IMG/VR virus record: IMGVR_UViG_3300042445_000894
Location: 1 to 48,934 of that record
Origin: a virus
DNA length: 48,934 nt
Reading direction: 5' to 3' (one strand)
In this document: positions 7,034 through 20,771 of the stretch, one piece after another
Position numbering within the stretch: the first letter of the stretch is position 1
Layout: every line of letters begins with the position of its first letter
Made by a program: the position numbers and the translations under genes
The notes under the pieces: generated by a model
Databases searched by the model: none
What the model saw: the letters and a program-made list of their open reading frames with translations, nothing else
Told to the model about the DNA's origin: nothing

Positions 7034-7059
7034 GAATAACCCTTTCGGGCCATGGGGTA

Positions 7060-7962: not shown

Positions 7963-7992
7963 TGCTGTTTCCTTTTTGCTGTTCATGTGCTT

Positions 7993-8021
7993 ATTATAAT
8001 GCCGTTTGATCAGACCGTCAA
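7993..8021 (-). promoter_or_regulatory. Sigma-70 promoter inside preceding gene
   Basis: TTGACG (8016-8021), 17 bases, TATAAT (7993-7998). The -35 box is inside the last codons of the gene at 8010-8156. The predicted +1 is the A of an ATG (7986) in frame with the ATPase. Confidence 0.8.
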
Positions 8022-8156
8022 ATCTTTATCAAAAGACCTTTCAAATTGCTCGGGTACTATCAAAGTGCCGCCATATGCATTCTGATACATTTCAGCAACC
8101 GCGGCTAAGTAGAATGTATACACTTTACCATTTGGGGTAATTAACGTATATTCCAT
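8010..8156 (-). CDS. Small protein, 48 aa
   Basis: ATG at 8156 has GGAG seven bases upstream and its own promoter. The product (MEYTLITPNGKVYTFYLAAVAEMY...) has a two-strand start, a helix and an acidic end. No family recognised. Its last codons overlap the promoter of the ATPase gene. Confidence 0.65.
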   Translation of the reverse strand: MEYTLITPNGKVYTFYLAAVAEMYQNAYGGTLIVPEQFERSFDKDLTV

Positions 8157-8183
8157 GGTCTACTCCGCTGTTGCTATGCCTCT

Positions 8184-8212
8184 ATTATAGCATAGAGTAA
8201 GGATGAGGACAA
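8184..8212 (-). promoter_or_regulatory. Sigma-70 promoter
   Basis: TTGTCC (8207-8212), 17 bases, TATAAT (8184-8189). Predicted transcript starts AUAGCAACAGCGGAG, the shared initial sequence. An ACCCT/AGGGT hairpin lies upstream near 8219-8240. Confidence 0.75.
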
Positions 8213-8270
8213 GCAAAGACCCTGTGTTTGAGTAGGGTATGGGGATTGTGCAAGTGTGCAAACAAGGGAG

Positions 8271-8356
8271 CTAGACTAAAGCTTTCTTATTATAATAGAA
8301 AGTTATTAATCTAGCGGGCTGGGGATTAAACAGAAAGCTTTATAATAACTCTGTTT
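8271..8356. repeat. Nested and adjacent inverted repeats
   Basis: First element: CTAGA (8271) pairs with TCTAG (8310-8314), enclosing CTTTCT (8282-8287) and AGAAAG (8297-8302) around TATTATAA. Second element: AAACAGA (8328-8334) pairs with TCTGTTT (8350-8356). Both loops contain AAGCTTT and TTATTATAA-like words. Candidates are a structured leader RNA, a terminator pair or a protein/replication site. The 8213-8578 interval has no confidently called gene. Confidence 0.5.
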
Positions 8357-8458
8357 TAAGATTGCTGGGGCAATTATAATCATCTGGGATTCTGGTCGTT
8401 TCCTCATAGGCCTAACGTACTCTGGTCTTTCTCTACGATCTCTATACTTTTCAGCCAT
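8306..8458 (-). CDS. Possible small basic protein, 50 aa
   Basis: A 50-codon frame starting MAEKYRDRRERPEYVRPMRK, strongly basic at first, then IIIAPAIL. The ribosome site is weak, and the 3' half lies in the hairpins of 8271-8356, so the end may not be coding. It is listed because the N-terminal part looks protein-like and the interval is otherwise empty. Confidence 0.3.
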   Translation of the reverse strand: MAEKYRDRRERPEYVRPMRKRPESQMIIIAPAILKQSYYKAFCLIPSPLD

Positions 8459-8578
8459 AAATACACCGTCTAGTATAGGCTCGATTGCGCTTATAAAATA
8501 TTACGTTTCTTTGCTATAGCAGCATCTTATATTGCTATATCGTTACTTAGCAGTATCTAGATTACGCCAAAATCCTTT

Positions 8579-9214
8579 TTAATAATAGATAAACCAGCCT
8601 GTTGCTATCCATTTCTCTTGAGTTTGTGATATAACTCCTCTATGGGTAAATGTAAAGTCTGCTGGCCAGATCACACTTAAACCCTTTTTTGCTTCCAGTT
8701 TAACGTCTTGAAACAACCATTCTGTACCACCGTTTTCGACGTCGTTTAGATACGTCATGTATACTAATTGTCTGTCGCTGTTACCGTTGTCTCTTTCCCA
8801 ATGCCAAATTTTAAACCCGCCACCTGGTGGATAATGTTGTATGTTATTTTGCATTGCAGTTCGAAGCTTTAAATGACCTATGTTATAGCGCTCTCCATAC
8901 TCTTTATATCCTACATTTAATGCATTAAAATACTTCTTGATTGTGGGGTGGTTGGAACTGGAGAAAAACTGTACATCCTCGGAATCTTTGATAGTCTTAT
9001 CAATTCTATAATCTTTATTTGTTACTCCAAGACTCTTGTACTCAGTATTGTCTTTATGATACTGTATCATTTCATCACACAAATCCTCATCTATATGGAA
9101 TTTGTAAATGAACTGTTCCTTCAGCATTTCGCCTACTCGTTGCATTATGATGTCTCTGTTCGGAGCATTCTTATCAACAAGCTCTTCAAACTTCTGCAGA
9201 TTATTGTTAAACAT
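8579..9214 (-). CDS. 2OG-Fe(II) oxygenase, prolyl-4-hydroxylase-like
   Basis: About 211 residues. The double-stranded beta-helix core shows HWERD (iron ligands His and Asp/Glu), a conserved MTYLNDVENGGTEW, a distal His in FTHRG, and a Lys/Arg for 2-oxoglutarate in QEKWIATGWF. These enzymes hydroxylate proteins or small molecules using O2 and 2-oxoglutarate and are widespread in T4-like phages of aquatic bacteria; substrate unknown. ATG 9214 overlaps the stop of a short MNER leader frame, suggesting coupled translation; an in-frame ATG (9238) and TTG (9259) are alternatives. Confidence 0.85.
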   Translation of the reverse strand: MFNNNLQKFEELVDKNAPNRDIIMQRVGEMLKEQFIYKFHIDEDLCDEMIQYHKDNTEYKSLGVTNKDYRIDKTIKDSEDVQFFSSSNHPTIKKYFNALNVGYKEYGERYNIGHLKLRTAMQNNIQHYPPGGGFKIWHWERDNGNSDRQLVYMTYLNDVENGGTEWLFQDVKLEAKKGLSVIWPADFTFTHRGVISQTQEKWIATGWFIYY

Positions 9215-9281
9215 TATTCTTTGATTGCCTAGCAGCATATTCTTGAGCAGCCTTGTCAAGTTGTCGAATTCGTTCGTTCAT
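9207..9281 (-). pseudogene. Truncated MNERI-family leader ORF, 24 aa
   Basis: MNERIRQLDKAAQEYAARQ followed by five residues and a stop, with AAGGAAACAAA before the ATG. It repeats the N terminus of the genes at 5107-5370 and 20286-20504 but lacks the rest. Its stop overlaps the ATG (9214) of the oxygenase. Either a decayed copy or a retained leader that couples translation. Confidence 0.55.
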
Positions 9282-9290
9282 TTTGTTTCC

Positions 9291-9665
9291 TTATGCGGCT
9301 TTTGCAAAATAACGGTAGGGTAGGCCTAACAAGAAACAGAGGTACTCGTCGTCACCGTTGCTACCTTCTGCTTCGTGGAACCAACGTATGGCCGTTTCGC
9401 GAGTCTTAGCACCGGACTCGATGAAACTCTGAACCTGTGCTTCAAAGCGTGCTATGGCCTTAGCTTGTGACGCTTTCTGTTCTTTATAGTTGGCTTCGAT
9501 GGCTTCTGCTAGATACACGAATTCTTGTTCAAAATCTGCTTCTGTCCAAGATGTGGTATCTATACCTCTGGGACGCATGCCATGTGCATCTTTGTACATA
9601 TCCGAGTACTGACAATGATACTGCTCTAGTGTTGTCATCTCTTCCCAGCTCTTGAATGTTTCCAT
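9291..9665 (-). CDS. Conserved phage protein (YSDMYKDAHGMRPR family)
   Basis: 124 residues from ATG 9665. The block QYHCQYSDMYKDAHGMRPRG marks a hypothetical family found in phages of many proteobacteria. The rest is a long helix (YKEQKASQAKAIARFEAQ) and a C-terminal RWFHEAEG / LCFLLGLPYRYF part. An in-frame ATG at 9689, at the predicted +1 of the mRNA, would add MNSKKEQT; AAGGA before 9665 makes the shorter form the default. Function unknown. Confidence 0.75.
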   Translation of the reverse strand: METFKSWEEMTTLEQYHCQYSDMYKDAHGMRPRGIDTTSWTEADFEQEFVYLAEAIEANYKEQKASQAKAIARFEAQVQSFIESGAKTRETAIRWFHEAEGSNGDDEYLCFLLGLPYRYFAKAA

Positions 9666-9695
9666 TGTTTGTTCCTTTTTGCTGTTCATGCCATG

Positions 9696-9724
9696 ATTAT
9701 ATGTGCTTTTGGACAAGGTGTCAA
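9696..9724 (-). promoter_or_regulatory. Sigma-70 promoter
   Basis: TTGACA (9719-9724), 17 bases, TATAAT (9696-9701). Predicted +1 is the A of ATGAACAGCAAAAAGGA. The upstream ACCC/GGGT hairpin includes the stop codon of the preceding gene. Confidence 0.85.
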
Positions 9725-9741
9725 CCGATAACCCTTTGGGA

Positions 9742-9903
9742 TTATGGGTTACTGGGGATTGCTTCAACCTGCTCAAGAGCGCCAAAGTAGAATGCTCGCC
9801 TGTTCGAGACCATGCGTGCTGTTCTCGATGTTTTTTTGACGAACTCAACGCCATTCGATTTGAAGTGCTGGCCGTGTGCTACAGTTCTAAACGTCATCTT
9901 CAT
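9742..9903 (-). CDS. Small phage protein, 53 aa
   Basis: Starts MKMTFRTVAHGQHFKSNGVE; then FVKKTSRTARMVSNRRAFYFG. The layout (a small beta fold with a TSRTARxxSNxRxFYFG block) matches a hypothetical family common in tailed phages. Its ATG overlaps the upstream stop as ATGA, and its stop lies in the hairpin before the next promoter. Missed by a 60-codon cut-off. Confidence 0.7.
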   Translation of the reverse strand: MKMTFRTVAHGQHFKSNGVEFVKKTSRTARMVSNRRAFYFGALEQVEAIPSNP

Positions 9904-10034
9904 AGTTGTCCTGTCCTTGTGAAGTACTCTAATGCTTCTTTTGCTTCTGATCTAAATTCATACCAACCTGCTGTCTCTTCTGTGAGGACATTCATGATTG
10001 CGTACATGTCATCTATATAAACGATTTGCCACAT
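9900..10034 (-). CDS. Small protein, 44 aa
   Basis: ATG at 10034 has AAGGAG spaced six bases upstream. Product MWQIVYIDDMYAIMNVLTEE... then WYEFRSEAKEALEYF, an alpha/beta mini-protein with acidic charge. It overlaps the following gene by ATGA. Family not recognised. Confidence 0.65.
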   Translation of the reverse strand: MWQIVYIDDMYAIMNVLTEETAGWYEFRSEAKEALEYFTRTGQL

Positions 10035-10043
10035 ACTGTCTCC

Positions 10044-10316
10044 TTACACCAAATCAACTTGTACTTGCTTACCACGAATTGTTCTACCGAGACCTGAGGG
10101 GATTGGTCGTTTGTTGATTTCTGCCATCCGACGATCATAGGCCAAGTGAATCATTGCTTCCCAGCACACTGTTCGAGCATTGACCGTTGCAAATTGTTCT
10201 GTCATTTGCTTGATGCTCATGTACATACCAATGTCATTTTCGGATCCGTCACCCTTGAAGATGACTCGAAACTTCTGGGAATTCTTGAAACCTTCGATGA
10301 TTGTCTTTTGTCGCAT
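10044..10316 (-). CDS. Hypothetical protein, 90 aa
   Basis: First gene behind the promoter at 10345-10373. Basic at both ends (MRQKTIIEGFKNSQKFRVIF; RTIRGKQVQVDLV) with a helical centre (KQMTEQFATVNARTVCWEAM). G+C above the local average. No known motif. Confidence 0.65.
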   Translation of the reverse strand: MRQKTIIEGFKNSQKFRVIFKGDGSENDIGMYMSIKQMTEQFATVNARTVCWEAMIHLAYDRRMAEINKRPIPSGLGRTIRGKQVQVDLV

Positions 10317-10344
10317 TTTGATTGTTCCTTGTTACTATGCCTTA

Positions 10345-10373
10345 ATTATAAGTGCTTTTGGAAAACCTGTCAA
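10345..10373 (-). promoter_or_regulatory. Sigma-70 promoter
   Basis: TTGACA (10368-10373), 17 bases, TATAAT (10345-10350); transcript predicted to start AUAGUAACAAGGAAC, so the shared initial sequence also holds the ribosome site. Confidence 0.85.
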
Positions 10374-10384
10374 CCAAAAACCCT

Positions 10385-10621
10385 TCAGCAATCAGGGTCA
10401 TAGCTGTACCATTCCTGAGCTTCATCTGGCTGGCCGTCTCCGTCGTCTAGGAGCTCTTCGGTCTCATAGTCACTAAGGTCCTCGTCCAAGATGTCGTTGG
10501 CTCGCATCATGTCTGCCACATCGTCTTCGCTCATGTAGGCCAGGGCCATCTCTGCTACTACTTGTGGGCTAATCAAACCCTGGTCCATCATTTCAATGAG
10601 TTTGTTGGTTGCTGTTCTCAT
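10385..10621 (-). CDS. Acidic small protein, 78 aa
   Basis: Helical N-terminal half (KLIEMMDQGLISPQVVAEMALAYM), then a very acidic C-terminal half (DLSDYETEELLDDGDGQPDEAQEW). Ribosome site GGAG precedes ATG by nine bases. The acidic tail recalls DNA-mimic or host-takeover proteins, but that is speculation. Confidence 0.65.
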   Translation of the reverse strand: MRTATNKLIEMMDQGLISPQVVAEMALAYMSEDDVADMMRANDILDEDLSDYETEELLDDGDGQPDEAQEWYSYDPDC

Positions 10622-10633
10622 CGTGTTCGCTCC

Positions 10634-10771
10634 TCAGTTACGGTTATCGCAGTCTTCCATAGCATTATTCCAGCCATCGCTGTAGCCATCGTTGTATGCT
10701 TGGGCGACCTCTTGCTCCAATCGTTTTATTTCTTTACGAAGTTCTTCGATTTCATCTAAGATATTCATCAT
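10634..10771 (-). CDS. Small coiled-coil protein, 45 aa
   Basis: MMNILDEIEELRKEIKRLEQ then EVAQAYNDGYSDGWNNAMEDC: a heptad-like helix with a GYxxGWNxA end that I know from small phage proteins. The start is directly behind a strong promoter, with AAGGA in the transcript's first bases. Two adjacent ATG codons (10771, 10768). Confidence 0.65.
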   Translation of the reverse strand: MMNILDEIEELRKEIKRLEQEVAQAYNDGYSDGWNNAMEDCDNRN

Positions 10772-10792
10772 GTTCCTTGTTACTATGCCTTA

Positions 10793-10821
10793 ATTATAGC
10801 ACATTTTGAGCAGAGTGTCAA
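10793..10821 (-). promoter_or_regulatory. Sigma-70 promoter
   Basis: TTGACA (10816-10821), 17 bases, TATAAT (10793-10798); transcript predicted AUAGUAACAAGGA. Confidence 0.85.
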
Positions 10822-10840
10822 GCTGCTCAAAAGAGACCCT

Positions 10841-11089
10841 TCAGGACACTGGGTCTTTGAAAATAGTACCGCGTTGCTGCTCATAGTCATAAAAAGCAAC
10901 AAGATTATCAGTTTTATAGTAAACTGTCAAGCCACCTAGATCACTTGAGTTATCAAACTGAGTGACGTTTGCAATAGTCATCTCAGCAATCACTTCAAGC
11001 TGTTCTGAATACTCGTGTTGCTCAAAGTCAATTGTATAGTTAGTTGTACTATTAATTGCTTGCTCTTGCGATGCTGTTAAAATGCTCAT
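10841..11089 (-). CDS. Small protein, paralogue of 13152-13388
   Basis: 82 residues. The C-terminal part (VTQFDNSSDLGGLTVYYKTD, then LVAFYDYEQQRGTIF) lines up with the gene at 13152-13388 (IQFDNCSRPGEAPVYVYEL, then PVAWYDTEIMCGHI): QFDN, G, VY, VA-YD-E and G-I are shared in order. A small domain of unknown function present twice in the accessory region. Own promoter at 11111-11139. Confidence 0.65.
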   Translation of the reverse strand: MSILTASQEQAINSTTNYTIDFEQHEYSEQLEVIAEMTIANVTQFDNSSDLGGLTVYYKTDNLVAFYDYEQQRGTIFKDPVS

Positions 11090-11110
11090 ACTTGCTCCTG
11101 TAAAAATACT

Positions 11111-11139
11111 ATTATAGCACGTTTTGAACAGATGGTCAA
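11111..11139 (-). promoter_or_regulatory. Sigma-70 promoter
   Basis: TTGACC (11134-11139), 17 bases, TATAAT (11111-11116), placed directly after the T run of a strong terminator. Confidence 0.8.
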
Positions 11140-11165
11140 GAAAAAACCCTACTAAAGAGTAGGGT
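11140..11165 (-). terminator. Intrinsic terminator
   Basis: ACCCTACT / AGTAGGGT 8-base stem with a 4-base loop, followed on the minus strand by TTTTTTC. The T run abuts the -35 box of the next promoter, a clear terminator-promoter junction. Confidence 0.85.
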
Positions 11166-11192
11166 ACTGGTGTAATTATTCTGTTTTAACGA

Positions 11193-11579
11193 TTACCACC
11201 ATGAATCGTAATACACTTCGTCACCTTCGGAAATAACAATCTTTGCCATACCGATAAACTCCATGTCTTGCAATTTCGAATCTTCATCTGGAGGATTGAC
11301 ACCGAAGAAGAAACCTTGCGTTACTGGTAGTTTATTTGCCAGTATATCTGCTTCAAGTGCATTTAGATCTTCTATAGTCAATCGTACTGGGATACAATTG
11401 AATGAAGGTTTATCACCACCTTTTGCTCGATACAAGCGTTCCATCCAACCATGCAAATCATGATGCTTGCGCCAATACATGATTTCCTCATGCCGCACAC
11501 CATGTTCAAGGCCTGCGATTTCAAAATCACCCAAGGCAAAGTTCTTTGCCACGCGAAATGCGTACATATCTAATCCCAT
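11193..11579 (-). CDS. Conserved phage protein (MGLDMYAFRV family)
   Basis: 128 residues. The start MGLDMYAFRV, the block EIMYWRKHHDLHGWME and the end DEVYYDSWW are typical of a hypothetical family shared by very diverse tailed phages. Also contains LTIEDLNALEADI and GFFFG. No catalytic motif recognised. It heads a unit read before the terminator at 11140. Confidence 0.8.
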   Translation of the reverse strand: MGLDMYAFRVAKNFALGDFEIAGLEHGVRHEEIMYWRKHHDLHGWMERLYRAKGGDKPSFNCIPVRLTIEDLNALEADILANKLPVTQGFFFGVNPPDEDSKLQDMEFIGMAKIVISEGDEVYYDSWW

Positions 11580-11580
11580 T

Positions 11581-11991
11581 TCAATACTCCTCGTCTTCTT
11601 CTACTGGATTTGTTTCAATTACCACACGACCAAACTGAATCGTTCCTTGCCAGTCTGGTGTACCTCGGCCGCCACCTGTCACAAAATCTGTATCAAACTC
11701 TTGAATGGCTCCGAGATCAAGCAAATTATCATACTTGTCGGCCTTGATATCCTCTACAAGAATACAACCAATCAGACCTGCATCTACAGAATAACTGTGA
11801 CCATACTGATCGTGATATACACCGTCGCCAAATGCTGTGCTGTACGTTGCAAATCTGCGACCATCTTTAAACTGGAACTCGCCGTCTTTGACCTTTTGTC
11901 CATCGAGAGTAATGTCACAAAACTCTCTCCATTCCTCATTAGTCATTACATAGCACAAGTCGCCGATGTAATATTTTCCTGCTGGCATCAT
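11581..11991 (-). CDS. Conserved beta-rich phage protein (GKYYIGDLCYVM family)
   Basis: 136 residues starting MMPAGKYYIGDLCYVM, with a beta-rich middle (GRRFATYSTAFGDGVYHDQ) and acidic end (ETNPVEEDEEY). Members occur in phages and some cellular genomes without known role. ATG overlaps the upstream stop (ATGA). Confidence 0.75.
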   Translation of the reverse strand: MMPAGKYYIGDLCYVMTNEEWREFCDITLDGQKVKDGEFQFKDGRRFATYSTAFGDGVYHDQYGHSYSVDAGLIGCILVEDIKADKYDNLLDLGAIQEFDTDFVTGGGRGTPDWQGTIQFGRVVIETNPVEEDEEY

Positions 11992-12209
11992 ACTAGTTTC
12001 CCCAATACTACGTAAAATAACTGATCTAATTCTCGTCCGAAATCTCGACCACGTTGACGATGATTGTAAATCTGTTCAACCAATTCCTTGTAGTGTGCTC
12101 CAACGGGCAATTCTCCGCGAGACTCCAATTCATCAAGTAAATCTTCGGTGTCAAAGTCACTCATCTCGATGTCAACTTCTACCTCAGTATAGATTGTCTT
12201 ATAACCCAT
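11988..12209 (-). CDS. Hypothetical phage protein, 73 aa
   Basis: Starts with a strand (MGYKTIYTEVEVDIEM), then an acidic helix (DFDTEDLLDELESRGELP) and a basic helix (EQIYNHRQRGRDFGRELDQL). The FDTEDLL-ELE-RG block is familiar from phage hypothetical proteins. The end overlaps the next gene by ATGA. Confidence 0.7.
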   Translation of the reverse strand: MGYKTIYTEVEVDIEMSDFDTEDLLDELESRGELPVGAHYKELVEQIYNHRQRGRDFGRELDQLFYVVLGKLV

Positions 12210-12218
12210 GATTGCTCC

Positions 12219-12431
12219 TTAGATGTAAAATGGTTCGTCTGAACCGATTGTGTCATAAACGATTTCGCGAACAACTGTGTCCATTGCTTCGCCATAAAGA
12301 TCGGGATTGGACGCAGCCAAAAGGCTCAATGCTTGATATGTGTCTGCCCAGGACAGCTTTATATCTTTTGCCACTGTGGCAATGCCGTGGACCGCCATGT
12401 TACCTGCATCTGTAAACATTCCATAATACAT
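12219..12431 (-). CDS. Hypothetical protein, 70 aa
   Basis: ATG 12431 (MYYGMFTDAGNMAVHGI) has AAGGAG nine bases upstream. The protein is helical, with WADTYQALSLLAASNPDLYG and an acidic end. An in-frame ATG at 12455 lies exactly at the predicted +1 and would add MNSNKEQT, the same extension as in two other genes here. Function unknown. Confidence 0.7.
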   Translation of the reverse strand: MYYGMFTDAGNMAVHGIATVAKDIKLSWADTYQALSLLAASNPDLYGEAMDTVVREIVYDTIGSDEPFYI

Positions 12432-12461
12432 TGTCTGCTCCTTGTTACTGTTCATGCCTTA

Positions 12462-12490
12462 ATTATAATTGCTTTTGATGACCCTGTCAA
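12462..12490 (-). promoter_or_regulatory. Sigma-70 promoter
   Basis: TTGACA (12485-12490), 17 bases, TATAAT (12462-12467). Predicted transcript starts AUGAACAGUAACAAGGAG, a mixture of the two leader types found in this region. Confidence 0.85.
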
Positions 12491-12526
12491 GAAAAAACCC
12501 TATAGCACGCTAGGGTACTATAGGGT
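12491..12526 (-). terminator. Strong intrinsic terminator
   Basis: ACCCTATAG / CTATAGGGT, a perfect 9-base stem (12497-12505 with 12518-12526), then TTTTTTC on the minus strand, immediately followed by the -35 box. It ends the unit containing the tiny membrane genes. Confidence 0.85.
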
Positions 12527-12530
12527 AATA

Positions 12531-12547
12531 AAAAGGTTTTACCTTTT
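12531..12547 (-). terminator. Second hairpin terminator, duplicated at 17.7 kb
   Basis: AAAAGGT / ACCTTTT stem with a TTTTTATT tail on the minus strand, 4 bases after the last tiny membrane gene. The same 25 bases (AGGGTAATAAAAAGGTTTTA onward) occur at 17698-17722, so two hairpins in series form a movable cassette. Confidence 0.75.
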
Positions 12548-12550
12548 AGA

Positions 12551-12643
12551 TTATGCGAAAATTAACCAAATTACTGCCGAAACTGCAAACAATTCTATTA
12601 ATGCGAATATTACAACAGTTTTAATATCTATACTATAGATCAT
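12551..12643 (-). CDS. Tiny membrane protein, 30 aa
   Basis: MIYSIDIKTVVIFALIELFA then VSAVIWLIFA: a single membrane helix. The ATG overlaps the upstream stop as ATGA. Last gene of a chain of three tiny membrane proteins ended by two terminators. Function unknown. Confidence 0.55.
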   Translation of the reverse strand: MIYSIDIKTVVIFALIELFAVSAVIWLIFA

Positions 12644-12810
12644 TTTATTAAGAACGCCCAGGATTTAAATAGTACAATGACAAATGCTATTGCCATTAAT
12701 GTAATCAATACGTCTAGTGCTCGTATGTGAATAGGTACATCAAGTTTGTCTTGAATATCTTTCCATTGTACAACCTTTGCTGCACCGAGCTTTAGATCTT
12801 TATTCATCAT
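12640..12810 (-). CDS. Small membrane protein, 55-56 aa
   Basis: A soluble N-terminal part (MNKDLKLGAAKVVQWKDI) followed by a C-terminal membrane helix (LITLMAIAFVIVLFKSWAF). Start is ATG 12810 or 12807, both overlapping the end of the next tiny gene. Overlap on both sides supports a real coding chain. Confidence 0.6.
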   Translation of the reverse strand: MMNKDLKLGAAKVVQWKDIQDKLDVPIHIRALDVLITLMAIAFVIVLFKSWAFLIK

Positions 12811-12892
12811 TTAGTATATAGGAGATATACGCAACCAATCCACCTATAATAGCCATACCTAATACTAATGTAAGTAAAATTATTGTTGTCAT
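12800..12892 (-). CDS. Tiny membrane protein, 30 aa
   Basis: MTTIILLTLVLGMAIIGGLV then AYISYILNDE: one membrane helix, with ATG overlapping the upstream stop as ATGA. Length and composition match many phage micro-proteins; no family recognised. Confidence 0.55.
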   Translation of the reverse strand: MTTIILLTLVLGMAIIGGLVAYISYILNDE

Positions 12893-13155
12893 ATATTTTC
12901 TAGTTCTTTGGGTTTAGATGTATCTTTATTCAAGTCATCTGGTTTAATCTTTTTAAGCCATTTTGCCGGCACATCCATTGTGTGACCTTTAGCACCATAT
13001 TCTGATACTAATTCTGTTTGTGATCTAACAGACCAAACAGGTCCAAATTCTGAATGATTTCCTTTGATTGATATACATTGAACTATTTTGCCAACTGAAT
13101 GACCAAATACTGATTCAATGATAATCGCCAAGCAACCTGGCTCTAGATCATTCAT
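12889..13155 (-). CDS. Conserved phage protein (MDVPAKWLKKI family)
   Basis: 88 residues starting MNDLEPGCLAIIIES, then FGHSVGKIVQC, EFGPVWSVRSQ and TMDVPAKWLKKI. This is a small beta-barrel-like family seen in many phages, function unknown. ATG 13155 overlaps the upstream stop as ATGA and is preferred to the earlier GTG. Tail is charged (DDLNKDTSKPKELENI). Confidence 0.75.
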   Translation of the reverse strand: MNDLEPGCLAIIIESVFGHSVGKIVQCISIKGNHSEFGPVWSVRSQTELVSEYGAKGHTMDVPAKWLKKIKPDDLNKDTSKPKELENI

Positions 13156-13388
13156 CGCTTGATATGCCCGCACATAATTTCTGTATCATACCAAGCAACG
13201 GGTTGACCGTTTAATTCATATACATAAACCGGCGCTTCGCCTGGTCGAGAACAGTTATCAAACTGAATATTCTCTTCAAACATCTTGACATACTTATCAA
13301 AGCGTTCATTGCTGTTTATATCATCCTGAGCAACTTCAAATTGCACATTGTAAGTATTATTACTAATGAATTCTTCTAGATTATTCAT
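13152..13388 (-). CDS. Small protein, paralogue of 10841-11089
   Basis: 78 residues. IQFDNCSRPGEAPVYVYEL and PVAWYDTEIMCGHIKR match the order of conserved residues in the other copy. Located in an operon of small membrane genes rather than alone behind a promoter. Function unknown. Confidence 0.65.
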   Translation of the reverse strand: MNNLEEFISNNTYNVQFEVAQDDINSNERFDKYVKMFEENIQFDNCSRPGEAPVYVYELNGQPVAWYDTEIMCGHIKR

Positions 13389-13583
13389 TTATTCTTTCCT
13401 AGCTGTTATTGTTGTTTTACCTACACCAATCAATAAAATAATAGCAAACCATGTTTCAATGCTATATGGGATAGCTAAAGCGGGGAATAGCACATTTAAT
13501 GCCCAGATTGTAGCCAGCGGTGCTAATAGTAAGCCCAAGAAAACAAAGAACAATAGTAGTGTCACTGCATCAGATTTAATCAT
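13389..13583 (-). CDS. Small two-helix membrane protein
   Basis: 64 residues: helix 1 VTLLLFFVFLGLLLAPLATIW, then NVLFPALAIPYSIETWFAIILL as helix 2, basic end (TTITARKE). The WALN-LFPALAIPY-ETW block recurs in many unrelated tailed phages. Probably inner membrane; role unknown. Confidence 0.7.
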   Translation of the reverse strand: MIKSDAVTLLLFFVFLGLLLAPLATIWALNVLFPALAIPYSIETWFAIILLIGVGKTTITARKE

Positions 13584-13585
13584 AA

Positions 13586-13777
13586 TTAACTCTTAGAAAT
13601 AGGCAAACATTCGGTATTAGTTTTTGTCCAGTAACCATTTGATGATTTCTCATAGACAAAACCATTCATACATTCTTTAGGTATTGTGGCTACTGTATAA
13701 AAAGCAAAGGCAAACAGTATAACCATACCGGCAATCAATCCTTTGACCATAGCATCCATAATTTTTTCATTAATCAA
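13586..13777 (-). CDS. Small single-helix membrane protein, TTG start
   Basis: 63 residues with a membrane helix (GLIAGMVILFAFAFYTV) and a C-terminal part with two cysteines (KECMNGF and NTECLPI), likely periplasmic. AAGGAG lies six bases before TTG 13777. An upstream in-frame ATG at 13795 contains that ribosome site and sits at or next to the predicted +1; it would give a six-residue extension. Confidence 0.65.
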   Translation of the reverse strand: MINEKIMDAMVKGLIAGMVILFAFAFYTVATIPKECMNGFVYEKSSNGYWTKTNTECLPISKS

Positions 13778-13800
13778 GTTTTTCTCCTTAAACATACTAA

Positions 13801-13829
13801 ATTATAACATCTTTTGTATTTGATGTCAA
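13801..13829 (-). promoter_or_regulatory. Sigma-70 promoter
   Basis: TTGACA (13824-13829), 17 bases, TATAAT (13801-13806). The -35 box overlaps the stop of the MbcA/ParS-like gene. Confidence 0.85.
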
Positions 13830-14029
13830 GACCCACCCGAAGCTGAAGTATGCCAAATTAGATAATCTTTGACCACTTCATACTCAATCTCATTCGGTGT
13901 TTTCATATTAAATGCTTTGTTTGGTGAGTACCACCAAGCATCTGCTAGCTCTTCTGAGCCTGTCAAAATCACAACCATTTCGCTTAAATTGTCTTTGCTT
14001 TGAAGATTAGAAATTTGTCGTTTTCTCAT
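13826..14029 (-). CDS. MbcA/ParS/Xre antitoxin C-terminal-like protein
   Basis: 67 residues. VVILTGSEELADAWWYSPN then KAFNMKTPNEIEYEVVKDYL follows the pattern of the toxin-binding domain (DUF2384-like) of MbcA/ParS/Xre antitoxins: a helix with A-x-x-W, then PN-x-A, then TP-x-E and a final V-x-x-YL helix. The N-terminal HTH usual for the family is not in this protein but in a separate overlapping gene just upstream. No RES-type toxin follows. Family call is by eye. Confidence 0.6.
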   Translation of the reverse strand: MRKRQISNLQSKDNLSEMVVILTGSEELADAWWYSPNKAFNMKTPNEIEYEVVKDYLIWHTSASGGS

Positions 14030-14163
14030 GCCAATTTATTCCGTATAATTTGAATTGCTATTTTTACTTTTTCAGGATTTATCTTAAGCCTTGCTGCTAT
14101 TTGCCTCATACTTAAATTTCTACTAAGCAATTCTCGCACTTGTAATACAATGCCGCTTTTCAT
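14026..14163 (-). CDS. Stand-alone HTH protein, 45 aa
   Basis: VRELLSRNLSMRQIAARLKI then NPEKVKIAIQIIRNK: a clear helix-turn-helix (turn around NLSMRQIA, recognition helix NPEKVKIAI). The ATG overlaps the upstream stop and its own stop overlaps the MbcA/ParS-like start, both as ATGA. Together the two tiny genes look like the two halves of an Xre/MbcA-type antitoxin. Confidence 0.65.
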   Translation of the reverse strand: MKSGIVLQVRELLSRNLSMRQIAARLKINPEKVKIAIQIIRNKLA

Positions 14164-14354
14164 ATTTTGTTAAATTTAAAATATAATACGTTAGAATCTA
14201 TATTTGAATTTTCTGTATTTTGTATAAATTCAAAATTTTGATTGATATAAAAATTTATTGCTATATTTGCCATTTTACCTAACGCCTCAATTTTAGTATT
14301 GGCATATTGGTATTGTCCATTCACAGGATCTAATATTGCGTATGTTGTTGTCAT
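14160..14354 (-). CDS. Small protein, paralogue of next gene
   Basis: 64 residues, MTTTYAILDPVNGQYQYANTK; the MTT-Y-PV-G-Y-YA start is shared with the 100-residue protein at 14351-14653. Follows the glycine-rich fibre gene in a chain of overlapping genes. Function unknown; a fibre-associated or control role is possible. Confidence 0.6.
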   Translation of the reverse strand: MTTTYAILDPVNGQYQYANTKIEALGKMANIAINFYINQNFEFIQNTENSNIDSNVLYFKFNKI

Positions 14355-14653
14355 GCTGTTCCTTCTGATATTGCTTTATCAAAAGTATAACCGAACTTGT
14401 GAATTTCTTCTAGAATATATAAAATATATTCTTTTTTAAGAAAATCTGGATCGTTTGAATCTTCTTCGGTTTTTGCCTTTGTCCATGTAATTGTTCCATC
14501 GTCATTATTATTTAAAATAGTAATGGGAGAAAAATGAGTATGCATCATATAAAATTCTAACATACTATTTACTAGTAGTTGTATTGCAACTGATTCTTTT
14601 TCTGCATAGTTATAACCGCATACTGGATTATAGAATGTGTATTTTGTTGTCAT
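14351..14653 (-). CDS. Hypothetical protein, 100 aa
   Basis: MTTKYTFYNPVCGYNYAEKE start, acidic centre (TKAKTEEDSNDPDF) and helical end (YILYILEEIHKFGYTFDKAI). Overlaps the fibre stop by one base (TAATG). Tandem paralogue of the following gene. Could be a fibre chaperone by position, which is inference. Confidence 0.6.
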   Translation of the reverse strand: MTTKYTFYNPVCGYNYAEKESVAIQLLVNSMLEFYMMHTHFSPITILNNNDDGTITWTKAKTEEDSNDPDFLKKEYILYILEEIHKFGYTFDKAISEGTA

Positions 14654-15786
14654 TATGATATGGCCCCATACGTTGTGCCACTATTACTTATTGGCATTGC
14701 ATATCCATTTAATGATATTGCTTTACCTCCCACCCCACCGCTAAAAGACAAAAATCCGCCTGTTGGATAATAGTCATTATAGTAATATCCTGTTCCTCCA
14801 CTTGCTCCCCAGCCTCCTCCGCCACCCGAAGCACCATATGAGTATAATGTCCTGCTAGGAGGCGAAACTGGCGCTGTACCATTTCCACCTGCGCCGCCTG
14901 CGGAGCCACCAGCTCCACTTATTCTCGGTGATGTGCCTGCATTAAGTGTGCCGCCACCGCCACCTGAGCCGCCTCCTTTACCGTGAAGGTTAGTCTTAGT
15001 ACCTGGGCCGCCGCCTGCACCTGGGCCACCTACTCCCGGTAATATTCTTCCTCCGCCTCCACCTGAACCTAAAAAAGATATTCTGCCCGCAGTTACACCA
15101 TTAGCACCGGTGCCGCCTATTGTACCGCCTGCTCCTCCCGTTGCGGGGCTATAATATGGATTGATTCCCGAGGCTTGGGCAGGCCCGCCAGCGCCGCCAC
15201 CAGCGCCGCCACCCCCACCAGAACTGAGAAAGCTTCCGCCGAATGGGCTTTGATTACCCGCAGCACCTCCTCCGCCCCCACCTCCGGCAACATAACCATA
15301 ATTTGTAAAACTTATGCCGGGTGATCCTATTGACATTGCGGCGCCACCTGTTCTGCCATTTCCTACAGGTGCTCCAGGAAATACACTTGTAGTAAGAGAA
15401 CCGCCTTGACCACCTTTTCCTATAATATATCCATAATTGATTAATGTCAATCCTGCAGCAAAAGGACCGCCTGTATCCAGTGCAGCTAATGCATTATTAT
15501 CGCTCCATATGTAAACACCTGAAGCTATTACGCAAGTTAAAGGCGTTGAGCCGTTCCAGCCATCTGCTACCAACTGATTATATAAGTTTAAATTTTGTTT
15601 AGGCGAAGATATATTGTATACTCTATTCTTATTTCTTAAATCGAGTAAACTTATTTGAGATTGACCTGTTGGTCTTTGAGCTAAATCTCTAACACGGGTT
15701 TCGTTGAAAGTTAAAGTTGTAGTACCACCTGCTAATAATTCAGTGTTAACATTGTTTGCTGATATTGTACCTGAAGGTGTTGTCAT
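14653..15786 (-). CDS. Glycine-rich tail fibre / adhesin 1
   Basis: 377 residues. N-terminal anchor-like segment (SGTISANNVNTELLAGG ... RVRDLAQ ... ISLLDLRNK) shared in pattern with the protein at 44085-45167. A middle domain (YNQLVADGWNGSTPLTCVI, then ASGVYIWSDNN) precedes about 230 residues of Gly-rich runs (GGGGGGAAG, GGSGGGGG) ending ISNSGTTYGAIS. Such regions pack as polyglycine helices in gp38-type receptor-binding tips of T-even phages. Likely host recognition. A late-type octamer lies 35 bases upstream. Confidence 0.8.
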   Translation of the reverse strand: MTTPSGTISANNVNTELLAGGTTTLTFNETRVRDLAQRPTGQSQISLLDLRNKNRVYNISSPKQNLNLYNQLVADGWNGSTPLTCVIASGVYIWSDNNALAALDTGGPFAAGLTLINYGYIIGKGGQGGSLTTSVFPGAPVGNGRTGGAAMSIGSPGISFTNYGYVAGGGGGGGAAGNQSPFGGSFLSSGGGGGAGGGAGGPAQASGINPYYSPATGGAGGTIGGTGANGVTAGRISFLGSGGGGGRILPGVGGPGAGGGPGTKTNLHGKGGGSGGGGGTLNAGTSPRISGAGGSAGGAGGNGTAPVSPPSRTLYSYGASGGGGGWGASGGTGYYYNDYYPTGGFLSFSGGVGGKAISLNGYAMPISNSGTTYGAIS

Positions 15787-15820
15787 TTTTCTATTTCTAA
15801 TAAGTTTGTTGATACACTAT

Positions 15821-15828
15821 TATTTATT
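15821..15828 (-). promoter_or_regulatory. Late-type promoter octamer (AATAAATA)
   Basis: Minus strand AATAAATA, one base off the T4 late consensus, 35 bases before the fibre start. The same variant lies before several structural genes. Confidence 0.4.
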
Positions 15829-15870
15829 GCTACACGTAAACGTCTACGTGTTTGCCAATTTTTCGACTCT

Positions 15871-16023
15871 TTATTTTTTGATCTCTGTTTGATTAGTCAC
15901 AGTTTGCTCAATATGGCGAAGCTCATCCCTTTTTCGAATGATCTTTGCCCTTTGTTTTTGATAAACAAGCCGTTCCAAGTGTAGGTTATTCGGGCTTGTT
16001 CTGTTTTCGTAACTTATCTTCAT
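15871..16023 (-). CDS. Small basic helical protein, 50 aa
   Basis: MKISYENRTSPNNLHLERLV, then KQRAKIIRKRDELRHIEQTV: a long charged helix. Starts 9 bases after the RNA ligase stop; the ribosome site is weak. Fills part of the 245-base gap between ligase and fibre. Confidence 0.5.
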   Translation of the reverse strand: MKISYENRTSPNNLHLERLVYQKQRAKIIRKRDELRHIEQTVTNQTEIKK

Positions 16024-16031
16024 ACTAGTAT

Positions 16032-17045
16032 TTATTGTCCTAGTAAATACTTGTTAGAGATTGCTTTAAAAGTCATGCCACCGTTAATCTGCTTAAAGAC
16101 CATACCCTCACGTTCTTGCTTTTCATTAAGAACAGATTTACCTTCAGCCCAAAGCAACAGCTCATCTACTGTACCAACACCTAAGTCTTTATCATTAGTA
16201 ATTACTGGCACGTGATTTAGTCTAAGAACTTTGATAAGCGCTTGACGTTCAAAAGGATTCATGTAGGCACCTTTTTCGATATCGTAAATATCAAACACGT
16301 AGAATGCAGGCTTATCCAATTTATAGATATTTCCCTGGATACCTGGGCCTATAATCTCACCTTGAATAGCATGATTTTGAAGACCAGAAATATGCATCTT
16401 GAATTTGATATCGTCCTCGATAGCAATTTTCCACAGTGCATTGTTCTCATCTTGCTTCAAGTCTAGATTGCGCGAGCATACACCAAATTCTTGATCAATC
16501 AAATAGCAAGTCATTGAAGAGCCTTCAAGCTTTTCAGTCAATTCAAATAGCAAATTGCTTTCAAATGCTGCCTTGATTTCTTTAGTAAGATTCTGTGCTC
16601 GCTCTTGATCTGTCTTTGGAATAGCTGTAGGAAAATTACCTTTAACCTGGCCTGCAAGCTGAGCATTGATTGGCATTTCCCATTTTATGATGTTCAATGG
16701 AAAGGAAACATCTAAGCCTTCGAATAGCTCGGATTCGATATTCGCACAGGTTGGTTCTAAAGGCAATAGCAAACCCTGTGACAACTGACCACGCAATTTG
16801 ACAGTGCGAAGACGTTCACCTTTGATGCCTTCGAACACTCGAGGTTCTTTGCCTTTAGATAAAAAAGGTGCAAGTTCAGTAGGAATCCAAGAATCAATCT
16901 CGCAATAGACACCGAGGTCACCTATGTTGAATTCATTTTTCTTTACTACTATTTTCCAACCTCCAATGACAGCGCATTCAATTGCATCCGCACCTTCGAT
17001 TGGCACAATATCGTCAATACGACGAATGGATGCCATTTTTCTCAT
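16032..17045 (-). CDS. RNA ligase (DRB0094/Rnl-type)
   Basis: 337 residues. An N-terminal OB-like domain (VIGGWKIVVKKNEFNIGD, WIPTELAPFLSKGKE) precedes the nucleotidyltransferase domain with KLEG (Lys about 172) as the adenylated lysine, then CSRNLDL, the downstream GEIIGPGIQGN block and EGMVFK (motif IV). The layout is that of the DRB0094-like ATP-dependent RNA ligases found in T4-like phages. It would seal broken RNA; no polynucleotide kinase is in this window. Start ATG 17045 is next to the upstream stop. Confidence 0.85.
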   Translation of the reverse strand: MRKMASIRRIDDIVPIEGADAIECAVIGGWKIVVKKNEFNIGDLGVYCEIDSWIPTELAPFLSKGKEPRVFEGIKGERLRTVKLRGQLSQGLLLPLEPTCANIESELFEGLDVSFPLNIIKWEMPINAQLAGQVKGNFPTAIPKTDQERAQNLTKEIKAAFESNLLFELTEKLEGSSMTCYLIDQEFGVCSRNLDLKQDENNALWKIAIEDDIKFKMHISGLQNHAIQGEIIGPGIQGNIYKLDKPAFYVFDIYDIEKGAYMNPFERQALIKVLRLNHVPVITNDKDLGVGTVDELLLWAEGKSVLNEKQEREGMVFKQINGGMTFKAISNKYLLGQ

Positions 17046-17046
17046 A

Positions 17047-17253
17047 TTAGTCTTTCTTAGGGAATCGTGCAGTAGGATCGCTCATGATCTTACCGCCACC
17101 TTTGTTCTTGCCATTAGCTGTTTGCAGCTTAGGATTTTTGCGGCCTTTTAGTTGCTCAACACTACCACCTTGAGCCATAAACCGAGCCATTGCTTCTTCT
17201 GATAACTTGCGCGCTTCGTCTTTGGATACTACTGGGAGTTCTTTGTCAATCAT
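17047..17253 (-). CDS. Small basic protein, 68 aa
   Basis: A helical start (SKDEARKLSEEAMARFMAQG) and a basic, Gly/Lys-rich tail (LKGRKNPKLQTANGKNKGGG). First gene of the unit with the RNA ligase. The basic tail suggests nucleic-acid binding; no family recognised. Confidence 0.65.
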   Translation of the reverse strand: MIDKELPVVSKDEARKLSEEAMARFMAQGGSVEQLKGRKNPKLQTANGKNKGGGKIMSDPTARFPKKD

Positions 17254-17283
17254 TTTATTTACCTTTCTTTGTTACTATGTCTT

Positions 17284-17312
17284 ATTATAACACCGTTTGG
17301 AAAATTTCTCAA
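17284..17312 (-). promoter_or_regulatory. Sigma-70 promoter
   Basis: TTGAGA (17307-17312), 17 bases, TATAAT (17284-17289). Transcript predicted AUAGUAACAAAGAAAGG. Confidence 0.75.
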
Positions 17313-17321
17313 CCAATGACC

Positions 17322-17347
17322 ATACACAGTGATGGGTTACTGTGTAT
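17322..17347. terminator. Perfect 9-base hairpin at GIY-YIG stop
   Basis: ATACACAGT / ACTGTGTAT with an 8-base loop overlapping the stop of the nuclease gene. T run is poor on the minus strand, so termination may be weak; its place between a stop and the next promoter matches other junctions. Confidence 0.5.
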
Positions 17348-17642
17348 TTAATGTTGGTAAGTACTCACCTATCAATTGACGCTCTAGGGCATGAGCATTT
17401 GTCTTGCCCCTAACGACCTCAACTATTTGTGGGATAAACACTTCGGCCCCGTAGGACCTGATAGCGCAGCATAAAGCCCAGGACTTACCCTCGGTCAATG
17501 CTCTGCGTATGTGCTTTTGTGTGCGAACCTTGAGGTCCTTTTGGCGAAAACCTTGCGTAATGCCAATGTAGAAATCACCAGTAACAGCATTTGTGATACT
17601 GTATACTATGTGTCTACGATCTGATCTCTTTTTTCTGTTCAT
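17337..17642 (-). CDS. GIY-YIG nuclease
   Basis: 101 residues. VYSITNAVTGDFYIGIT gives the two signature strands (GIY read as VYS, and YIG), followed by a Lys/Arg-rich helix (KVRTQKHIRRAL) with the catalytic Arg, and a C-terminal Glu/Asn region (ALERQLIGEYLPTLN). It has no DNA-binding arm, so it is a minimal GIY-YIG domain. The only ATG coincides with the predicted transcript start and there is no ribosome site, so the mRNA may be leaderless. Confidence 0.75.
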   Translation of the reverse strand: MNRKKRSDRRHIVYSITNAVTGDFYIGITQGFRQKDLKVRTQKHIRRALTEGKSWALCCAIRSYGAEVFIPQIVEVVRGKTNAHALERQLIGEYLPTLNTQ

Positions 17643-17648
17643 GTCATA

Positions 17649-17677
17649 ATTATAACACCGTTTGAACAGAATGTCAA
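17649..17677 (-). promoter_or_regulatory. Sigma-70 promoter, leaderless unit
   Basis: TTGACA (17672-17677), 17 bases, TATAAT (17649-17654); the seventh base after TATAAT is the A of the GIY-YIG start codon. Confidence 0.85.
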
Positions 17678-17706
17678 GAATAACCCTTCAGACTGCTAGG
17701 GTAATA

Positions 17707-17722
17707 AAAAGGTTTTACCTTT
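17707..17722 (-). terminator. Hairpin terminator, copy of 12.5 kb element
   Basis: AAAGGT / ACCTTT stem with TTTTTATT tail; contains the stop codon of the gene at 17715. Followed by an ACCCT/AGGGT hairpin and a promoter, repeating the arrangement at 12.5 kb. Confidence 0.75.
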
Positions 17723-17945
17723 CGATTTCTAAACCGTTTTCATTGGTTTCAGTGGCCCAATGTATCACAACCCAATCACCTATGCACATCTCTTCCGCCA
17801 CGCGGCCTTCGGGTGGAATATCTTTACCACCCTTTGCCATCATGCCATACCAATATTCAAAGTAATTATCTAGTATTTCTTTTTCGGACATAGTGACAAT
17901 AAAATCTGCCTCGTCTGTAGGTTCAACATAGGTCCAGTATTTCAT
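17715..17945 (-). CDS. Conserved phage protein (MKYWTYVEPTDEADF family)
   Basis: 76 residues: MKYWTYVEPTDEADFIVTMS, then EKEILDNYFEYWYGMM and CIGDWVVIHWATETNENG. This is a recognisable hypothetical family in many tailed phages, typically ending DWV-VHWA-E-NENG. Its start is coupled to a 14-residue upstream frame. Confidence 0.75.
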   Translation of the reverse strand: MKYWTYVEPTDEADFIVTMSEKEILDNYFEYWYGMMAKGGKDIPPEGRVAEEMCIGDWVVIHWATETNENGLEIER

Positions 17946-17986
17946 AAATTATACATTTCTCTTTTAGCTACGTTATCTTCGTTCAT
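17942..17986 (-). CDS. Possible 14-residue leader peptide
   Basis: MNEDNVAKREMYNL. ATG has AAGGA six bases upstream, which the following gene lacks, and its stop overlaps that gene's ATG as ATGA. It may serve only to bring ribosomes to the gene at 17945. Confidence 0.4.
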   Translation of the reverse strand: MNEDNVAKREMYNL

Positions 17987-17987
17987 C

Positions 17988-18290
17988 TTATGTCCTTGTG
18001 AAGTGTGGGATAGGCGACATATCATTATAAACGGCCCATGGATTGTCGTCAATCCACACGTCTATATGTATACGCATATTATCTAAATATGGTTTCTTTG
18101 CTAATCTGCCTGTGAAAATAATCCTATCTACATTTTCTTGTAGATATTTAACTACATCGTCACCTTCTTCTTTGTATCGCATAGTGACAACATATACAGT
18201 ATGTCCGTTGAATTTAGCATTGGATATAAATTTATCCCACAGTAAAGGATCTCTAGTATACGTATCATCAAAATCTAAAGATATATTCAT
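17988..18290 (-). CDS. HAD-like phosphatase
   Basis: 100 residues. DFDDT near residues 6-10 is the HAD motif I (nucleophile and acid/base Asp), VVTMR fits motif II, a Lys in RLAKKPYLD motif III and WIDDNP motif IV. It is very short and capless, like phage 5'-deoxyribonucleotidase-type or 5'(3')-nucleotidase domains. Substrate unknown; nucleotides are likely in this context. Confidence 0.8.
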   Translation of the reverse strand: MNISLDFDDTYTRDPLLWDKFISNAKFNGHTVYVVTMRYKEEGDDVVKYLQENVDRIIFTGRLAKKPYLDNMRIHIDVWIDDNPWAVYNDMSPIPHFTRT

Positions 18291-18604
18291 TTGGCAGATA
18301 ATCTTAACAGTTTAACTTGGCTATCGGGTGCAACATATACGTGCGCTCGATACAAAGTGTTATCTTTGTTAGGATCTAATTGTTTTGTAAATTCTATTAG
18401 ATTATTTTCCATCATATACCTAACTAATTCTTCGGCAAGTCTTTCTTTAACCATATTTTCATAATCTGGTTGCCATGCAATCTTATCAATATAGGTACCT
18501 ATATAGGTTGCTGTTACTAACTTACCACCTATAGCATATTCTTTTTGATTTACATCAACATTAAATTCTTCTAGATAATTTGATATTTTTGGTATTATCG
18601 ACAT
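18287..18604 (-). CDS. Hypothetical protein, 105 aa
   Basis: Starts MSIIPKISNYLEEFNVDV; contains a long helix (ENMVKERLAEELVRYMMENN) and a beta-rich end (YRAHVYVAPDSQVKLLRL). Overlaps the phosphatase by ATGA. Not recognised. Confidence 0.6.
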   Translation of the reverse strand: MSIIPKISNYLEEFNVDVNQKEYAIGGKLVTATYIGTYIDKIAWQPDYENMVKERLAEELVRYMMENNLIEFTKQLDPNKDNTLYRAHVYVAPDSQVKLLRLSAK

Positions 18605-18610
18605 CGGTAA

Positions 18611-18898
18611 TTAATCTTCTTTAGGTAACAACCCATTACTATGTCTATCGCGCGTTTGCTCCACATCTTGAAACAATCGTTTTTCCTGTGTTGTCAATGT
18701 ATCTTTATGTGTTTTTCTAGGATTGCCGCATAAAGGACATTCTGGGTTACCACAATCCATAGCATGATGCTTGGCAAACTTATGTGGCTCAATATTGGTA
18801 ACACCTGCAGCTTTTGCAATTTTTACTTGCTTTTTAATTGCAACTTCTTCTTGATGCAATCGTTTGCTATGCTTGATTTTATCTTCTTCGGTACTCAT
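18611..18898 (-). CDS. Conserved phage protein with Cys cluster
   Basis: 95 residues. KFAKHHAMDCGNPECPLCGN, then PRKTHKDTLTTQEKR is a known phage pattern (HHAMDCG-C-CGNPRK). Four cysteines plus two His could hold one zinc. The N-terminal half is a basic helix. Function unknown. Confidence 0.75.
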   Translation of the reverse strand: MSTEEDKIKHSKRLHQEEVAIKKQVKIAKAAGVTNIEPHKFAKHHAMDCGNPECPLCGNPRKTHKDTLTTQEKRLFQDVEQTRDRHSNGLLPKED

Positions 18899-18900
18899 GA

Positions 18901-19131
18901 TTAAGTTTTTGGTTTTTCTTCGGAAAATGAAGGTTCAACAGTTTTGTCGACAATTTCTCTTTTATCTTGTTCAAAATATACAGGATGATATTCGTACTTA
19001 AATAGTTTTACAGGTTTCCAATATTTTTCTATTAAGTTATTTACTATAATTACACCAATTACTATAACTAGAAACCCCAAAGTTACTAGAATACTCGCCG
19101 ACATAAAAATAGCTGCAGATTCCATACTCAT
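18901..19131 (-). CDS. Small membrane protein, 76 aa
   Basis: One long hydrophobic segment (FMSASILVTLGFLVIVIGVI) near the N terminus, then a basic/aromatic region and an acidic tail (VEPSFSEEKPKT). Probably inner membrane with the tail inside. ATGA overlap with the neighbour. Confidence 0.65.
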   Translation of the reverse strand: MSMESAAIFMSASILVTLGFLVIVIGVIIVNNLIEKYWKPVKLFKYEYHPVYFEQDKREIVDKTVEPSFSEEKPKT

Positions 19132-19388
19132 TTACGTGTCCTCTTTTTTATTGTTGTTTTTTCTTCTACCCAAGTAGAGTTAATCATCTTATCATATTCT
19201 TTTTCAGTTATTTCCTTGTAGGAATGTTCTGCTACTGAATCTAATGACTTCTCGAAGTCAAGTAGTGATTTTAGGTTAAAGCCTCGAGCAGGTACTTTGA
19301 AACGAAAACCATCGACCAGCTTTACGCTGATCTGATAGTATGCGTCTCGTTGCACCTTTTCAGTTTGTTTGATTTTCGTCGATTGCAT
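19128..19388 (-). CDS. Hypothetical basic protein, 86 aa
   Basis: Beta-strand start (YYQISVKLVDGFRFKVPARG), then a helical acidic centre and a very basic tail (TTIKKRTRK). The start overlaps the upstream gene by 29 bases; an internal GTG (at VQRDAYY) is an alternative. Family unknown. Confidence 0.55.
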   Translation of the reverse strand: MQSTKIKQTEKVQRDAYYQISVKLVDGFRFKVPARGFNLKSLLDFEKSLDSVAEHSYKEITEKEYDKMINSTWVEEKTTIKKRTRK

Positions 19389-19566
19389 CTTTATGCTGCT
19401 CTAAAAAATTATCATATGCACGTGGTTCCATATAATAACTAAGTACTTCAAGCAATGCTTTTCTTAAAGTTAAATTACTATCCCCACGACTAATTTCAAA
19501 TGCTTCTTGCAATTCGTCGATAAGGATTGTATCAACTTGTTCATAAGTAAGTTCAAAAGTTTTCAT
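19360..19566 (-). CDS. Hypothetical protein, 68 aa
   Basis: MKTFELTYEQVDTILIDELQ, then TLRKALLEVLSYYMEPRAYD: helical. ATG 19566 has GGAG seven bases upstream and overlaps the upstream stop. Similar small proteins are frequent in T4-like phages; no function assigned. Confidence 0.6.
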   Translation of the reverse strand: MKTFELTYEQVDTILIDELQEAFEISRGDSNLTLRKALLEVLSYYMEPRAYDNFLEQHKDAIDENQTN

Positions 19567-19724
19567 TGTTTCTCCACACAAAATAAATGAGCATCTAGAC
19601 CACGATCTTTTAAAGTTTTAGATAAGTCTCGGCATTCTTGATATGTTTTAAACTGAGCCAAATTTATGAATTTAATTTCACTCGGTGTAGTGTTAAACAT
19701 TAAAGCGATGACTAATGACCACAT
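19563..19724 (-). CDS. Small protein, 53 aa, signal-like start
   Basis: MWSLVIALMFNTTPSEIKFI, then TYQECRDLSKTLKDRG and HLFCVEKQ. A short hydrophobic start could be a signal peptide; two cysteines would then form a disulphide in the periplasm. ATG 19724 with GGAAAG upstream is preferred to the earlier TTG. Confidence 0.5.
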   Translation of the reverse strand: MWSLVIALMFNTTPSEIKFINLAQFKTYQECRDLSKTLKDRGLDAHLFCVEKQ

Positions 19725-19725
19725 A

Positions 19726-19785
19726 TTACTTTCCAAAATAACAAATACCAAATGCAATAAAAAATGCCAATATAATTTTAATCAC
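19726..19785 (-). CDS. Possible 19-residue membrane peptide
   Basis: GTG 19785 with AAAGGA upstream; product MIKIILAFFIAFGICYFGK, a single hydrophobic helix. Fills the gap between two genes and overlaps the upstream stop. Very short, so tentative. Confidence 0.35.
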   Translation of the reverse strand: MIKIILAFFIAFGICYFGK

Positions 19786-20071
19786 AGTGTAATTCCTTTG
19801 TCCAATGTATAACAAAACTATCTCGGTCTTTAGTGTGTCTAAACCAAAATGCAGTGGGATCGACATAGTATCGTAGACCGGGTTCTGCAATCTTTACGGT
19901 TTGTCCCACAATGCTTTTGACTCTGTGACCCGCTGGTCCAAATGTCTGTTCAGCCCAGACCATCATGTCTGCACCATGTTGCATTCTTATTGGCAACAAT
20001 GGTCTCACAGTGTGATATGGTTCGTTGTACAAGGACCTTGTTTGGCATAGTAAATTGTAATCTGGTGTCAT
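19778..20071 (-). CDS. Hypothetical protein, 97 aa
   Basis: MTPDYNLLCQTRSLYNEPYH, then VRPLLPIRMQHGADMMVWAE and FWFRHTKDRDSFVIHWTKEL. Beta-rich with many aromatics. ATG 20071 overlaps the upstream stop as ATGA, so the frame extending further upstream is not used. Not recognised. Confidence 0.6.
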   Translation of the reverse strand: MTPDYNLLCQTRSLYNEPYHTVRPLLPIRMQHGADMMVWAEQTFGPAGHRVKSIVGQTVKIAEPGLRYYVDPTAFWFRHTKDRDSFVIHWTKELHCD

Positions 20072-20289
20072 TGATAACTCCATATCATTGTGGCATTGTC
20101 TTGGATGAATTTTTTTGACCATGCAACATACCCGCCATTGCTGTTGCTCCAAGGGCAATACTGTTGCCATAGTGCCTGGGCTTCTGCAGGATCTGGGTGA
20201 CTCTTCATCAATTGGTCCACTTGAGGTCTTGTGCGCCAACCATCTAAGCTCCAGTCATGTGCTTGCAGTGCAATTTCTAATTCAGTCAT
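20068..20289 (-). CDS. Hypothetical protein, 73 aa
   Basis: MTELEIALQAHDWSLDGWRT, then RPQVDQLMKSHPDPAEAQAL and a Trp-rich end. DPAEA--LW fits a helical phage protein. Overlaps both neighbours by ATGA. Function unknown. Confidence 0.6.
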   Translation of the reverse strand: MTELEIALQAHDWSLDGWRTRPQVDQLMKSHPDPAEAQALWQQYCPWSNSNGGYVAWSKKFIQDNATMIWSYQ

Positions 20290-20741: not shown

Positions 20742-20771
20742 TACAATGTCCTTTAAGATTGCTATGTCTAT

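Follow-up and report, generated by a model that had tools for sequence, protein, structure and literature searches.

RES-Xre modules are widespread in bacteria, and the papers found treat them in connection with persistence, the response to stress and the stability of plasmids. Their antitoxins belong to the Xre/MbcA/ParS group, which includes Xre (6GW6), MbcA (6FKG), VPA0769 (8GUG), ParS (6D0H) and NatR, and in the NatR-NatT structure the C-terminal helix of the toxin-binding domain projects into the active site of the RES toxin (PMC11535050). Antitoxin mimicry by phages is an established strategy, exemplified by T4 Dmd and AdfB (ICP1 Gp145), small phage proteins that directly bind and neutralise a toxin of a host TA system (PMC11481870). 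We propose the same logic for a family of phage proteins represented here by one of 67 residues. Dmd and AdfB have been described with little or no similarity to host antitoxins, whereas the 67-aa family shares ancestry with the antitoxins of the host, its neutralising activity being a prediction.

The window, that is, the whole stretch of DNA analysed, is a 48.9-kb virus record (IMGVR_UViG_3300042445_000894) and probably a fragment. Its features are collected in Table 1. The two overlapping ORFs of 45 and 67 residues described in the earlier note were recovered on the minus strand, together with their ATGA junction. In a simple ORF-based gene set of the window, ATGA accounts for 14 of the 97 junctions between neighbouring minus-strand genes and is the commonest type; the overlap is therefore real but not special, and taken alone it does not point to a gene that was split. 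The search for close relatives of the window gave one sibling contig (IMGVR_UViG_3300002835_003043), in which both genes and the ATGA overlap are kept and the 67-aa protein is 100% identical, as is its gene. A sequencing or assembly error as the origin of the split was rejected, since both reading frames and their overlap recur in this second contig.

Table 1 Positions of the features discussed, numbered along the window.
Feature	Position	Strand	Remarks
67-aa ORF	13826-14029	minus	PF09722-like stand-alone toxin-binding domain; proposed antitoxin mimic
45-aa ORF	14026-14163	minus	Predicted tri-helical HTH, LuxR/GerE/sigma-4-like; probably a separate neighbour gene
ATGA stop/start overlap of the 45-aa and 67-aa genes	14026-14029	minus	Commonest junction type in the phage
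Sigma-70-type consensus promoter, TTGACA-17-TATAAT	13801-13829	minus	First hexamer shares bases with the 67-aa stop codon; would serve the next gene downstream
Three-ORF cassette (1.67 kb)	14165-15833	minus	Present in the window, absent from the sibling; ends at the HTH start codon
RNA ligase	16032-17045		Closely similar to the RNA ligase of Naegleria gruberi (E 2.7e-84)
Nearest upstream perfect consensus promoter	17649-17677	minus	Could serve a unit ending with the 67-aa gene
D-Ala-D-Ala carboxypeptidase (Peptidase_S11) and cell wall hydrolase	20829-21659 and 23627-24205		

Searched alone, the 67-aa protein matched PF09722 (Xre_MbcA_ParS_C) below threshold (E 0.037, 14.5 bits against a cut-off of 24.5). 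A search of PDB sequences with this single sequence returned chance polybromo matches only, and no assignment was obtained from PHROGs and NCBIfam. PF09722 was matched by nine of ten family members, the best with an E-value of 1.8e-8, and because the relatives bring this strong match the domain assignment is firm. Alignment of the family profile with 78 bacterial RES antitoxin domains using hhalign gave an E-value of 1.6e-12; an earlier ten-member profile had given 9.9e-12 against the bacterial domains, with 20 column shuffles all at 0.1 or above. The sole match of the family profile among PDB sequences was the P. putida Xre antitoxin 6GW6 (E 2.6e-4). The AlphaFold2 model of the 67-aa protein is helical with a pLDDT of 82.5, and all nine of its Foldseek matches in the PDB were Xre, MbcA, VPA0769 or ParS antitoxins or their complexes, with no other fold represented. 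The top four entries scored Z 6.0-6.7 across 65-67 residues, single E-values being weak for so short a chain. The ORF contains no HTH domain. Membership of the 67-aa protein in the Xre/MbcA/ParS family, as a stand-alone version of the toxin-binding domain, is well supported, in agreement with the earlier reading of this gene; the similarity to DUF2384 expected of it in a profile search is borne out through the family, the single protein falling below threshold.

Relatives were collected stepwise from viral contigs by a motif scan (seven besides the sibling), followed by a profile scan (a few more), and finally by a looser motif scan combined with a local HMM search of IMG/VR, yielding at least 101 distinct phage members, nearly all of them stand-alone proteins of 55-80 aa. 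WW, PN, A and T were imposed by the search pattern and were set aside as evidence of conservation. Among the members listed, the common residues that were not forced are G (97%), F (96%), P (98%), V (94%) and Y (97%), all of which occur in the window protein, with V and Y marking a conserved last helix. The phage family resembles the Xre/MbcA/ParS antitoxins in its profile, in its helical model and in this last helix, and the two share the motif W-x-x-x-P-N-x-A-[LF]-x-x-x-T-P, although the phage proteins usually have WW where bacterial members have WL. Unlike RES-Xre antitoxins, they have no HTH in the protein and no adjoining RES gene, and are mostly confined to the short length given above.

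When 50,697 phage genomes were searched directly by tblastn with the 67-aa protein and with five of its relatives, nothing convincing emerged; a plasmid search gave chance matches only (E 3-4), and an AWW-PN-AF profile found no relative in 84,980 genomes of bacteria and archaea. BFVD contains comparable small phage proteins that are uncharacterised, and one that already bears this domain name. Among these, A0A6J5PX87 (57 aa) has the stand-alone size and the fold of the 67-aa protein (E 3.2e-3, 41% identity) and probably belongs to the same family. A literature search found no description of the phage family, and no function or family description for the small BFVD proteins. The domain and single annotated members were already known, and the phage family itself is the larger finding.

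Bacterial members with a comparable motif often have an N-terminal HTH region and directly precede a RES gene, RES making up seven of the nine tested genes that adjoin them. Neither the cognate adjacent RES gene nor an HTH in the same protein was found in the phage members, the flanks of which contain no conserved partner gene. PF08808 (RES) had no match in 44 virus records, the window among them; these records are mostly fragments, in which the immediate neighbours were covered. The earlier note likewise saw no toxin candidate beside the two genes.

We favour the explanation that the 67-aa protein mimics an antitoxin and plugs a RES-family toxin of the host, because the NatR helix reaches the RES active site and phage mimics are established; with target and mechanism inferred, we give this an even chance of being correct. 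The protein would be expressed early, from a region dense in consensus promoters, and would bind a RES-family toxin, an enzyme of the host that consumes NAD. Its C-terminal helix would then occlude the active site, and a toxin so blocked could not halt the infected cell. The proposal in the earlier note, that a phage carrying an antitoxin without a toxin could neutralise a host RES- or MbcT-type toxin, is plausible, and it is sensible because a relative of the toxin-binding domain lies in a record without a detected RES gene. Applied to the whole tailed-phage family, the same explanation would make its members, at least 101 in number, a widespread class of antitoxin mimics homologous to RES antitoxins, implying that NAD-depleting RES toxins are a common anti-phage defence. 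We advance this wider claim tentatively, as one that falls somewhat short of an even chance. A large phage family of toxin-binding parts alone would mark RES toxins as a defence in need of disarming by phages, and it offers a compact set of ~60-residue proteins for a direct test of the RES-as-defence idea.

The solo domain may instead bind a partner other than RES, either a different toxin of the host or one of its regulators, and serve as a host-takeover or regulatory adaptor. In a phylogenetic tree the window protein falls within a clade made up of phage proteins without an HTH (100/99, from few columns and with a long branch), and the phage group clusters with Verrucomicrobiota 'PN-AF' proteins that have an HTH together with a PF09722-type domain and for the most part no RES gene next to them. 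This is the main doubt about a RES partner. The missing conserved partner gene in the phage flanks points the same way. However, the placement with Verrucomicrobiota derives from 70 columns, long branches and motif-selected sequences, and is kept as a caveat, and the structurally known partners of the domain are RES toxins. We consider a non-RES partner possible, though doubtful. The Verrucomicrobiota proteins concerned (L049, L050, L064, L092, L101, L103 and others) combine an HTH-like N-terminus with the PN-AF domain, mostly with no RES gene found downstream, and it is possible that those without RES are antitoxin relatives with another partner.

The earlier note took the two genes to be halves of one antitoxin, in which case the 45-aa HTH and the 67-aa protein would associate as an Xre/MbcA-type antitoxin or repressor. 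The gene order, HTH followed by toxin-binding domain, is indeed that of the normal protein read from N to C terminus, the combined 112 aa are close to the 111 residues of the MbcA chain, the ATGA junction suggests coupled translation, and both genes are retained in the sibling phage. However, such a junction is routine in this genome, the relatives are stand-alone proteins lacking an HTH, and the 45-aa protein appears structurally to be of another type. It is confidently predicted to form a tri-helical HTH (pLDDT 89.6) with structural neighbours among LuxR/GerE regulators, sigma factors (region 4) and phage terminase small subunits, and its alignment with canonical antitoxin N-termini by hhalign was unconvincing, with a probability of 7% and an E-value of 0.005, slightly better than shuffles. 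A profile of the HTH found no relative in viral contigs besides the sibling, and among 181 genes flanking the at least 101 family members an HTH match was found only in the sibling copy, with none beside the other 100. Conservation of the HTH ORF in relatives thus holds for one sibling phage and fails for every other relative. We regard the split antitoxin as quite unlikely, and the claim of two halves is not supported. The simplest reading is a solo domain with an HTH neighbour in one phage only, because the clade is HTH-less and the HTH was not found elsewhere in viral contigs.

On this simplest reading, the 45-aa HTH is probably a separate small protein, encoded ahead of the 67-aa gene in the window phage and its sibling only, and it probably binds DNA. 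Between the two phages 17 of its 135 nt differ, with NG86 estimates of 0.058 for dN and 0.547 for dS, and the resulting dN/dS of about 0.11 identifies it as a real gene under purifying selection. An antitoxin or addiction module that lost its toxin and left a functionless remnant would fit the failure to find a RES toxin in the record, but is highly improbable given a stand-alone family of at least 101 distinct proteins in which positions are strongly conserved, the identical 67-aa protein in the sibling and the low dN/dS of the HTH gene.

The sibling lacks the 1.67-kb cassette that abuts the HTH start codon, and this spot is therefore a recombination boundary. One of the three ORFs in the cassette encodes a 377-aa Gly-rich protein. 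On the minus strand of the window, TTGAC-N18-TATAAT promoters occur 15 times (941-41196) against 0.06 expected, 11 of them within 7005-20800, and this array suggests an early region, as judged from promoter sequence. Dispersed repeats about 50-90 bp long enclose many of these sites. From the position of the nearest upstream perfect promoter, the 67-aa gene would end a transcription unit that includes the RNA ligase. The ligase has five phage relatives at ~52% identity. The carboxypeptidase and cell wall hydrolase genes lie further along the window.

Elsewhere in the family, an Acb1 anti-CBASS gene (L020:1941-2474, on the same contig as L015; E 1.4e-19) overlaps the start of one member and an Acb3 gene flanks another; as two cases without a background rate, these adjacencies are only suggestive and are not treated as enrichment. 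Immediately following two family members is a gene for a small CopG/RHH-like protein (L024:1363-1581 and its L025 counterpart; sub-threshold, E 0.034).
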